Shown here one piece after another: positions 60-40,450 of a DNA stretch of 64,000 nucleotides. How positions within the stretch are numbered: the stretch's first letter is position 1; the number at the start of each line of letters is the position of its first letter. The notes under the pieces are model-generated. The model was not told where the DNA came from. It worked only from the letters and a program-made list of their open reading frames with translations, and did no database searches. The stretch comes from Microcaldota archaeon (lineage in GTDB: Archaea; Micrarchaeota; Micrarchaeia; Micrarchaeales; CABMGC01). The stretch is taken from NCBI GenBank assembly GCA_021850805.1, contig JAJZKO010000004.1, positions 1 to 64,000 on the forward strand, given 5' to 3'. Made by a program: the position numbers and the translations under genes.

Positions 60-1604
60 ATGACTGCCAGGAAGGAAGATGTGAAAGATAAGCACTGGTC
101 CGACTTAATCGCAGAAGAAGTCATAAACAGGAAAAAAGCACCTTTTGTGATAAGCGGTGGCATGACCACCAGCGGACCTGCCCATTTTGGAACAGTCTGC
201 GAGTTCCTCTACCCTTATGTGATAAAAGAGGCAATGAAGGCGAGTGGTGCTGAGGCAGAGTACGTGTTTGTTGGGGATATTTTAGACGCATTTGACAGCG
301 TGCCGTTTGAGTTAAAAGAATATGGAGATAGGCTTAAGAGTGAGCTTGGAAAACCTCTTGTGCATGTAATTGACCCTCTGGGGTGCCATAAATCTTACGG
401 TGAACATTATCTGGGTCAGGCAGAGGAGATAATGAAGGCCCTTAAGATAGAAGTAAGGCTGCTTAAGGCAAACGAGATGTATGAAAAAGGGGAGTTTGAC
501 AGGTTTGCAAGGATGTACCTTAGCAGGGAAGATAAGGTTAAGGAGGTTGTCGCTTCAAGCTCAAGGAAGCCAATAGAATCGATGAAGGGCTGGAGCCCTA
601 TTATGCCGATATGTGAGAAGTGTGGCAAGATAGCGACAACCAGGGTAACATCGCATAGCGCGGATGAATATGAGTATGCATGTGATAGAAAGACGGCCTA
701 CACGGAAGGGTGCGGCTATGTGGGAAGAAACAGAATAGAGGATCATAAGTATAAGCTGCAGTGGCGCCTGCATTGGCCTTCATGGCAGGTCATTTTTGGT
801 ACAAGCATAGAGGGAGGCGGGGTTGACCATATGACAAAAGGCGGGAGCTGGGATACTGCATATGCGATACACACTAAAATACTTCAGAATGATCCCCCTG
901 TGCCTTTTAAGTTTGGTTTTGTACTGATACACGGGCACAAATACTCTAAATCCAAAGGCATAGGAATGAGTGTCGCAGAGGTTCTTAGGCTTATTCCACC
1001 AGAGATGCTCAAGTATGTGCTGATAGAGCCAAATATCCAGCAGAATAAGGATATAGAAGCGGACGGAGAGTCGCTCCTCCTTCTATATAGTGAATTTGAG
1101 AGGCTGTCCATGATGAAGGTTCCGGAGAGCAGGGCTGACGAGAAGAAACTTAAGGCTTACTCTCTTTCAACATCTAAACGGCTGTGGGAAGCCAGATTTG
1201 TGGATGTGCTTCTCAACTTTCAGATATATAGAGACTGGGAAAAAGTTGGTACTATCCTGAAGGATCCGGACGGGGTCAGATATCTCTCCGGTTATATAAA
1301 TGAATGGATAAAGCGCGGACATATGCCTGAGAAATATGACTTTTCTGTATCGAAATCCAAGGTAAGCAATAATAAGGAAGCCCTTACTGCATTATCCGAG
1401 AGGCTTGCGGAGAATATGAGTGAGGTTGACGTTCATAATCTAATATATTCGGTGGCTAGGGAGAAAGGAGTTGAGCCTAAGGATTTTTTCGCTACATTGT
1501 ACATGGCACTGATAGGCAAAGAGAGCGGACCGCGGCTTGGAAAGCTAATATGTGCAATTGGTACAGAGAGAACCAGGGAGCTGATTGATTACGCAGTTTC
1601 CTAG
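60..1604 (+). CDS. lysS: Lysyl-tRNA synthetase, class I
   Basis: MTARKEDVKDKHWSDLIAEEV...FVISGGMTTSGPAHFGTVCEF and KYSKSKGIGMS (KMSKS-like) motifs of class I LysRS; ATG at 60 preferred over the track's TTG at 24. Confidence 0.93.
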   Translation: MTARKEDVKDKHWSDLIAEEVINRKKAPFVISGGMTTSGPAHFGTVCEFLYPYVIKEAMKASGAEAEYVFVGDILDAFDSVPFELKEYGDRLKSELGKPLVHVIDPLGCHKSYGEHYLGQAEEIMKALKIEVRLLKANEMYEKGEFDRFARMYLSREDKVKEVVASSSRKPIESMKGWSPIMPICEKCGKIATTRVTSHSADEYEYACDRKTAYTEGCGYVGRNRIEDHKYKLQWRLHWPSWQVIFGTSIEGGGVDHMTKGGSWDTAYAIHTKILQNDPPVPFKFGFVLIHGHKYSKSKGIGMSVAEVLRLIPPEMLKYVLIEPNIQQNKDIEADGESLLLLYSEFERLSMMKVPESRADEKKLKAYSLSTSKRLWEARFVDVLLNFQIYRDWEKVGTILKDPDGVRYLSGYINEWIKRGHMPEKYDFSVSKSKVSNNKEALTALSERLAENMSEVDVHNLIYSVAREKGVEPKDFFATLYMALIGKESGPRLGKLICAIGTERTRELIDYAVS

Positions 1605-38701: not shown

Positions 38702-40120
38702 CTACCCCTTAACTACCCCTATGGGAACGTTTCTCGAGACCAGCGAGGCAAGTCCTGCTCCAGAAACTACCCCTACAACATCATCTATATCTTTGTAGAC
38801 CCACTCTGCCTCTTCACTTACCAACTTCCTGCTCTTGATCCTCAGTTCTATACCTTTCTGCTCCATCGATTCGAAAGTCCTGCTCTGCGGTATCTCGCGC
38901 AAGGCCCTGTGCCTTGACATTACCCTTCCTGCTCCATGGCACGCAGATCCGAAAGTTTCATCCAGTGCACCTTCCGCACCGCATAGTATGTAACTGGCGG
39001 TACCCATGCTGCCTGGTATAAGAACAGGTTGCCCGAAAGAGATATAGGATTTAGGGACGTCTTTTGAACCTTTAGGAAGCGAGCGTGTCGCGCCCTTCCT
39101 GTGTACATACAATTTCTTCCTGGAACCTCCTACCTTGTGCTCTTCAAGTTTCACTATGTTGTGTGCAACATCGTATAACACCTGCATGCCCATCTCATCT
39201 GCACTCTTCCCAAAAACCTTCTCAAATGATCTCCTAACCGAGTCTGTAATCAGCTGCCTGTTAGAGAATGCAAAATTGACTGCGCACTTCATTGCCTTGA
39301 TGTAACTCTCTGCTTCCTTGCTTCCTACATAGGCATAGCTTAACTCGGGGTCTTCAAGGGCAATCCCCTTCCTACTGCGGTATTCTGCGAGTTCCATAAG
39401 GTAATCTGTACATATCTGATGCCCAAACCCACGTGAGCCTGTATGTACCATAACAACCACCTGATCCCTGAAAAGGCCGAAGGCCTCTGCTGTGCGTTCA
39501 TCAAATAGCTGCTCAACTTTCTGCAGCTCAAGGAAATGGTTGCCTGCCCCTAGCGTACCAATCTGGTTAAGCCCCCTCTTTTTTGCAAAGCTGCTAACCG
39601 CGCCAAAATCTGCACCCTCCATAAATCCCCCTTCTTCTATGAATTTCGGATCGGAATCAAACCCGTATCCCTTCTCTATGAGGTAACCTATCCCTTCCTC
39701 GCTGACTCTCTTTAGATCGGCTTCCCCAAATCCTATATTATTCTTGCTGCCAACACCGCTTGGAACATTGGTGAACAACGAATCAAGAAGGCGGCCAATA
39801 GACCCTTTTATTTCAGAGTGCCTGAATGAGGTAAGTATCACCCGTACTCCGCAGTTTATATCATACCCAACCGCACCAGGCGATATTATCCCATCATCAG
39901 CATCGAATGCCGCGACGCCTCCGACAGGGAACCCGTAACCTTCATGGCCATCCGGCATGACAATTACATCCTCAACAAGGCCGGGCAGGTGTGACGCATT
40001 CAATGCCTGCTTGAGCGTCTCGTCCCCTTTCATTATATCCATCATGCGACTATTCGAATACACCTTAACCCGCGAAGAATCTATCCTAAACCTGAATTCA
40101 TCAAGCTTCTTTACAATCAT
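38702..40120 (-). CDS. rtcB: RNA-splicing ligase RtcB
   Basis: VIVMPDGHEGYGFPVGGVAAFDADDGIISPGAVGYDINCGVR; LGAGNHFLELQ; GSMGTASYILCG; CHGAGR. Confidence 0.95.
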   Translation of the reverse strand: MIVKKLDEFRFRIDSSRVKVYSNSRMMDIMKGDETLKQALNASHLPGLVEDVIVMPDGHEGYGFPVGGVAAFDADDGIISPGAVGYDINCGVRVILTSFRHSEIKGSIGRLLDSLFTNVPSGVGSKNNIGFGEADLKRVSEEGIGYLIEKGYGFDSDPKFIEEGGFMEGADFGAVSSFAKKRGLNQIGTLGAGNHFLELQKVEQLFDERTAEAFGLFRDQVVVMVHTGSRGFGHQICTDYLMELAEYRSRKGIALEDPELSYAYVGSKEAESYIKAMKCAVNFAFSNRQLITDSVRRSFEKVFGKSADEMGMQVLYDVAHNIVKLEEHKVGGSRKKLYVHRKGATRSLPKGSKDVPKSYISFGQPVLIPGSMGTASYILCGAEGALDETFGSACHGAGRVMSRHRALREIPQSRTFESMEQKGIELRIKSRKLVSEEAEWVYKDIDDVVGVVSGAGLASLVSRNVPIGVVKG

Positions 40121-40353: not shown

Positions 40354-40450
40354 GCAGGGATGGCGGAGCCAGGTCAAACGCGGCAGACTCAAGATCTGTT
40401 GACTTAGGTCTGCGGGAGTTCAATAACAAGAACAAATCTCCCTCCCTGCA
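40354..40450 (+). tRNA. tRNA-Leu(CAA) with predicted 12-nt intron in the T-loop (40424-40435)
   Basis: Acceptor GCAGGGA/TCCCTGC; anticodon loop CTCAAGA; variable arm GAC-TTAG-GTC; T-stem GGGAG/CTCCC enclosing 19 nt TTCAATAACAAGAACAAAT. Confidence 0.88.

Follow-up and report, generated by a model that had tools for sequence, protein, structure and literature searches.

What becomes of twelve extra nucleotides in the T-loop of a tRNA? The question is raised by a type-II tRNA-Leu(CAA) gene in the window, by which we mean the whole 64,000-nucleotide stretch of Microcaldota archaeon DNA analysed here. The T-stem of this gene closes 19 nt, TTCAATAACAAGAACAAAT, where 7 is normal, so that the precursor measures 97 nt vs 85 nt in the spliced form (Table 1). 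A first-pass annotation had proposed an intron inside the T-loop, and the 19-nt loop that it described is borne out by the sequence, within an Rfam match of 43.5 bits. Its T-stem also stands with five of five pairs, but the 3' strand, which it had given as CCCTC, is one base off and is in fact CTCCC.

The same Rfam model, RF00005, spans positions 40354-40450 of the unspliced gene (E 6e-6). ARAGORN makes no call on this unspliced sequence and reports tRNA-Leu(caa) only after 40424-40435 is taken out. The removal leaves TTCAAAT, as the first-pass annotation had predicted; this 7-nt loop is that of the Leu paralogues in the same genome (TAG, CAG, and GAG) and of most intronless orthologues.

A score that is low beside the genome's other tRNAs, combined with the ARAGORN miss, would fit a tRNA pseudogene, or an artefact of sequencing or assembly. 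However, no other tRNA-Leu(CAA) was found in the genome, all stems of the locus are intact, the insert site is shared by more than 100 separately assembled genomes, and the T-stem pairs 5/5 in every one of the 71 distinct insert-bearing sequences of tRNA-Leu(CAA) that were checked. Conservation across the order refutes this reading, to which we give practically no credence. A second, intact tRNA-Leu(CAA), which would have spoken against splicing, was looked for and not found among the 37 tRNA matches of the genome (~0.88 Mb in 25 contigs, ~84% complete).

Two side observations concern these other matches: a weak type-II tRNA-like sequence (33 bits), whose anticodon loop has 9 nt, CCTTACCAA, lies at G000:C25:86000-86084 (L036), and three identical tRNA sequences (L024, L025, and L026), which sit at the termini of contigs C2, C3, and C24 or close to them, are probably one repeat at assembly breaks.

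Table 1. Features of the tRNA-Leu(CAA) locus and of the two enzyme genes; positions are those of the window, except for EndA, which is given by contig.
Feature	Position	Strand	Basis
RtcB RNA ligase gene, head-to-head with tRNA-Leu(CAA)	38702..40120	-	PF01139, 524 bits; reading frame
tRNA-Leu(CAA) precursor gene, T-loop intron inside	40354..40450	+	RF00005; ARAGORN after 12-nt removal; orthologue matches
Acceptor stem, GCAGGGA / TCCCTGC	40354..40360 / 40443..40449	+	
Anticodon loop CTCAAGA	40388..40394	+	sequence
Anticodon CAA	40390..40392	+	sequence; ARAGORN call on spliced form
T-stem 5' strand GGGAG (positions 49-53)	40414..40418	+	5/5 pairs with 40438-40442
Central helix, exon strand GTTC (G53 T54 T55 C56)	40418..40421	+	pairs with 40430-40433; kept in 109/109; in fold
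Predicted 12-nt intron TAACAAGAACAA, between positions 58 and 59	40424..40435	+	sole placement with a single product in 112/112; missing from L086, L089, L095, L099
Central helix, intron strand GAAC	40430..40433	+	all variants among 109 distinct introns pair with GTTC
3' exon start, A59 T60	40436..40437	+	AT in 112/112 genomes
T-stem 3' strand CTCCC (positions 61-65)	40438..40442	+	sequence
Discriminator A	40450	+	
EndA splicing endonuclease, single ORF	G000:C20:82705-83832	-	end-to-end match to ARMAN-2 EndA (PDB 4FZ2)

Boundaries, pairing, and fold of the insert

Across 112 genomes with 109 distinct strings, the loop is laid out as TTC-AA-[10-21 nt]-AT, and the placement of the cuts can be compared directly. 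A58 and R57 are universally conserved in tRNA. Cutting at 58/59 alone yields an identical TTCAAAT in all 112 genomes, whereas 56/57 or 57/58 puts C or T at A58 or R57 in 6-7 genomes, 59/60 gives two products, and 60/61 spoils position 60 in most genomes.

The 3' end of the intron is equally constrained: the final six nucleotides of the 109 distinct introns are made up of a 4-mer and the two bases after it, with GAAC as the 4-mer in 81, GAGC in 11, GGAC in 9, GAAT in 7, and GGGC in 1. With G-U allowed, it pairs in full with exon GTTC in 109/109 introns, and each of the 28 variants retains all four pairs through G-U wobbles on the intron side. When each intron is shuffled at constant composition (2000 shuffles), on average 2.5 and at most 11 of the 109 still pair, a figure that is not a probability, the introns being related by ancestry; shifting the 4-mer window by 1-9 positions leaves 0 or 1 pairing. 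Outside GAAC-NN, length (10-21 nt) and sequence vary freely. T54, T55, and C56 are universally conserved in tRNA, so the exon strand is invariant and two-sided covariation is impossible for the central helix.

The helix drawn in the first-pass annotation, GTTC at 40418-40421 with GAAC at 40430-40433, is therefore real, being present in the introns of all relatives (109/109) and in the minimum-energy fold of the precursor, whose whole-molecule z is -3.4. The two 3-nt bulges drawn with it hold in part: the predicted fold has a 3' bulge of 5 nt (AAATC or CAAAT), and the 3-nt bulge AAA requires a T-stem slipped by two, in which 49-52 pair with 60-63. The slipped register reaches -4.6 vs -6.0 kcal/mol for the predicted fold here, a cost of 1.4, and with the T-arm GAGAG/CTCTC, as in relatives, it becomes the minimum at -6.5 kcal/mol. 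By these models, both the 5-nt-bulge and the slipped 3-nt-bulge registers are possible. The central helix itself is only slightly favoured over an open 19-nt loop in this tRNA-Leu(CAA) (-6.0 vs -5.5 kcal/mol). A T stands directly before the 4-mer in 81 of the 109 introns and carries the helix to A57, which is why many of them fit a bulge-helix-loop (BHL) better than a strict bulge-helix-bulge (BHB).

The same hairpin stacks close to the T-stem in the predicted fold, as it would if the 12 nt stayed in the mature tRNA and lengthened its T-arm. Against such a retained expansion, the pairing kept in all relatives occupies T54-T55-C56, the residues that the tRNA elbow requires; the length and sequence of the insert are free outside GAAC-NN; orthologues without an insert hold the exact 7-nt loop; and A58 and R57 are intact in all relatives only with excision at 58/59 or 59/60. 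We consider retention very unlikely.

Distribution among relatives

Orthologues were sought in 59 relatives and then in 301 genomes of the phylum. Within one order, at least 112 genomes have the insert at the identical T-loop site, spread over two families and about 53 of the 54 genera sampled, and in most relatives of the order the match spans positions 1-97 of tRNA-Leu(CAA). A sequence pattern alone recovers 51 of the 54 genera; beyond these, g46 carries the insert (L128), g12 also does, in a contig-end fragment without anticodon (L101), and g38 lacks it. Another pattern, which is incomplete, matches at least four loci in named records, three of them Candidatus Micrarchaeota and one an uncultured archaeon. 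As a separate observation, the g46 gene (genome G213) has A in place of G after the anticodon (CTCAAAA) along with its T-loop insert.

At the four orthologous loci named in Table 1, the insert is missing and the 7-nt loop is intact. The intronless genomes are G039 (loop TTCGAAT), G049, G047, and five of genus g3 (G002, G171, G173, G174, and G176), so that at least four lineages lack the insert while retaining the exact 7-nt loop. They sit inside g3, g31, and g39, plus g38; the other members of the first three genera carry the insert, and at least three losses are therefore recent and clean. Among the ~135 genomes outside the order, about a dozen matched the search pattern, which is specific to a single anticodon stem; intronless tRNA-Leu(CAA) is found there too, family f15 being one example.

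Archaeal tRNA genes are known to be disrupted in other ways (PMC4090602), and a permuted or split tRNA, or the scar of an integrated mobile element, could stand in place of a cis-spliced intron. Yet the exons here are contiguous and in normal order, the 3' part being neither upstream nor at another locus, which refutes a permuted or split gene; for a scar, an insert of 10-21 nt is too short for an element and persists though families f1 and f2 have different genes beside it. We hold this group of explanations to be exceedingly improbable.

Inside the order, a search with one motif form, GAACAAATC, returns almost only tRNA-Leu(CAA) and its repeats, with a few further matches. Outside it, T-loop inserts are found in two other tRNAs. 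The tRNA-Thr(CGU) of two f15 genomes (L215 and L216; minus-strand matches), missed by ARAGORN and by Rfam's cut-off, carries an insert laid out in the same way, TTCAA|AAAACTTTGAACAA|AT. A probable tRNA-Arg(CCU) in G074 (L219, ~1426-1540, plus strand) has one ending GAACAA|AT and, apparently, an intron in the anticodon loop as well.

Enzymes and the proposed maturation pathway

The genome encodes both the cutting enzyme and the ligase that an EndA-type intron needs. The EndA reading frame matches the ARMAN-2 enzyme as a three-unit protomer over the full length of 4FZ2 (E 6e-153, 58% identity; residues 4-384 vs 7-387), and all eight residues checked are conserved: the catalytic Y236, H251, and K282, the ARMAN-specific-loop Y160 and K161, and K228, R275, and W384. 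The epsilon2-type endonuclease guessed from the window is thus present. ARMAN-2 EndA cuts BHB and BHL pre-tRNAs in vitro, for which Y160/K161 are required (PMC12397907). Genome G042 encodes an EndA that matches the solved ARMAN-2 enzyme with 100% identity over 381 residues, and there too the intron is found at the same site, in the loop GTTCAAAAAATTTGAACAAAT (L061). An EndA relative is present in 276 of the 295 genomes of the class; because EndA relatives span most of the class, the distribution of the intron is not explained by the enzyme alone.

Joining of the tRNA-Leu(CAA) exons is expected to fall to the ligase RtcB, whose gene lies divergently beside the tRNA gene here and at some 24 further family f1 loci; no such adjacency was found at the loci of family f2. 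In L129 (2628-5570) and L131 (4-2514), RtcB is itself split near residue 94-110, next to the motif GYDINCGVR, by ~1.3-1.5 kb of sequence, and the same is probably true of L067; the interruption is possibly an intein.

The gene has the marks of an archaeal EndA-type intron: an interrupted tRNA whose cloverleaf is restored by exact removal, and a helix of ~4 bp between exon and intron beside the cut sites (109/109). We are highly confident that 40424-40435 is such an intron, 12 nt long, at 58/59 of tRNA-Leu(CAA), cut by the epsilon2-type EndA and joined by RtcB. The sequences show directly the insert and how it pairs, its conservation and the way some relatives cleanly lack it, and the two enzyme genes; cutting, joining, and the order of both relative to end trimming are what we infer. 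The interpretation offered by the first-pass annotation is right in substance, with exact removal restoring the tRNA, 58/59 being the sole single-product site, and the EndA type matching. The proposed pathway would proceed as follows:

(i) In the precursor, exon G53-U54-U55-C56 would pair with intron GAAC and hide the T-loop.

(ii) The paired precursor would present a relaxed bulge-helix-loop, or a strict bulge-helix-bulge if the T-stem slips by two, to the epsilon2-type EndA, which would cut after A58 and before A59.

(iii) RtcB would ligate the exons into the canonical T-loop UUCAAAU, which should then be able to make the elbow contacts T54-A58 and G19-C56.

One may ask whether selection keeps the intron order-wide as a processing checkpoint, in which U54-U55-C56 would stay hidden until EndA and RtcB have acted, only the spliced tRNA would form the elbow and be trimmed and modified, and the adjacency to RtcB (in one family) would allow feedback between the supply of ligase and this tRNA; we think this improbable.

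For an endonuclease of known structure, this order of ultrasmall archaea offers more than 100 naturally occurring versions of a single substrate, diverged in sequence and constant in boundaries and pairing, and the set allows direct testing of the rules of relaxed BHB recognition. The intron also indicates that a non-canonical tRNA intron can persist instead of turning over, and it cautions that the sole gene for an anticodon can escape standard tRNA finders.

Comparison with known systems

The tRNA-Leu(CAA) intron is of a known kind, the T-loop introns of archaeal tRNAs, and the broad-specificity endonuclease of its lineage was already known; what is added here is order-wide conservation, a fixed boundary, and clean losses. 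Like the non-canonical T-loop introns at 56/57, 59/60, and similar positions in Thermoproteales and other archaea (PMC4090602), it is a T-loop insert with exon-intron pairing of the bulge-helix type, its removal restores a canonical T-loop, and cutting by EndA is expected. It differs from them in its 58/59 position, in occurring for the most part in one isoacceptor (Leu CAA), in its order-level conservation in Micrarchaeota, and in a relaxed 3' bulge or slipped T-stem register.

An enzymatic counterpart is ARMAN-2 (Ca. Micrarchaeum acidiphilum; PDB 4FZ2, 9W2K; PMC12397907, PMC6379350), which has the same EndA type, and the genome with the identical EndA, G042, has the same tRNA-Leu(CAA) intron. 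The 2025 paper (PMC12397907) assayed the ARMAN-2 enzyme on pre-tRNA-Ile(UAU) and pre-tRNA-Cys(GCA); tRNA-Leu(CAA) with its T-loop intron was not among the substrates. Short T-arm introns are likewise found in the tRNAs of Cyanidioschyzon merolae and of cryptophyte nucleomorphs (PMC4090602, PMC9602550), and in the nucleomorphs their excision was demonstrated by RT-PCR (PMC4090602); they occur in other tRNAs and depend on eukaryotic enzymes, and the likeness does not imply shared ancestry with the tRNA-Leu(CAA) intron.
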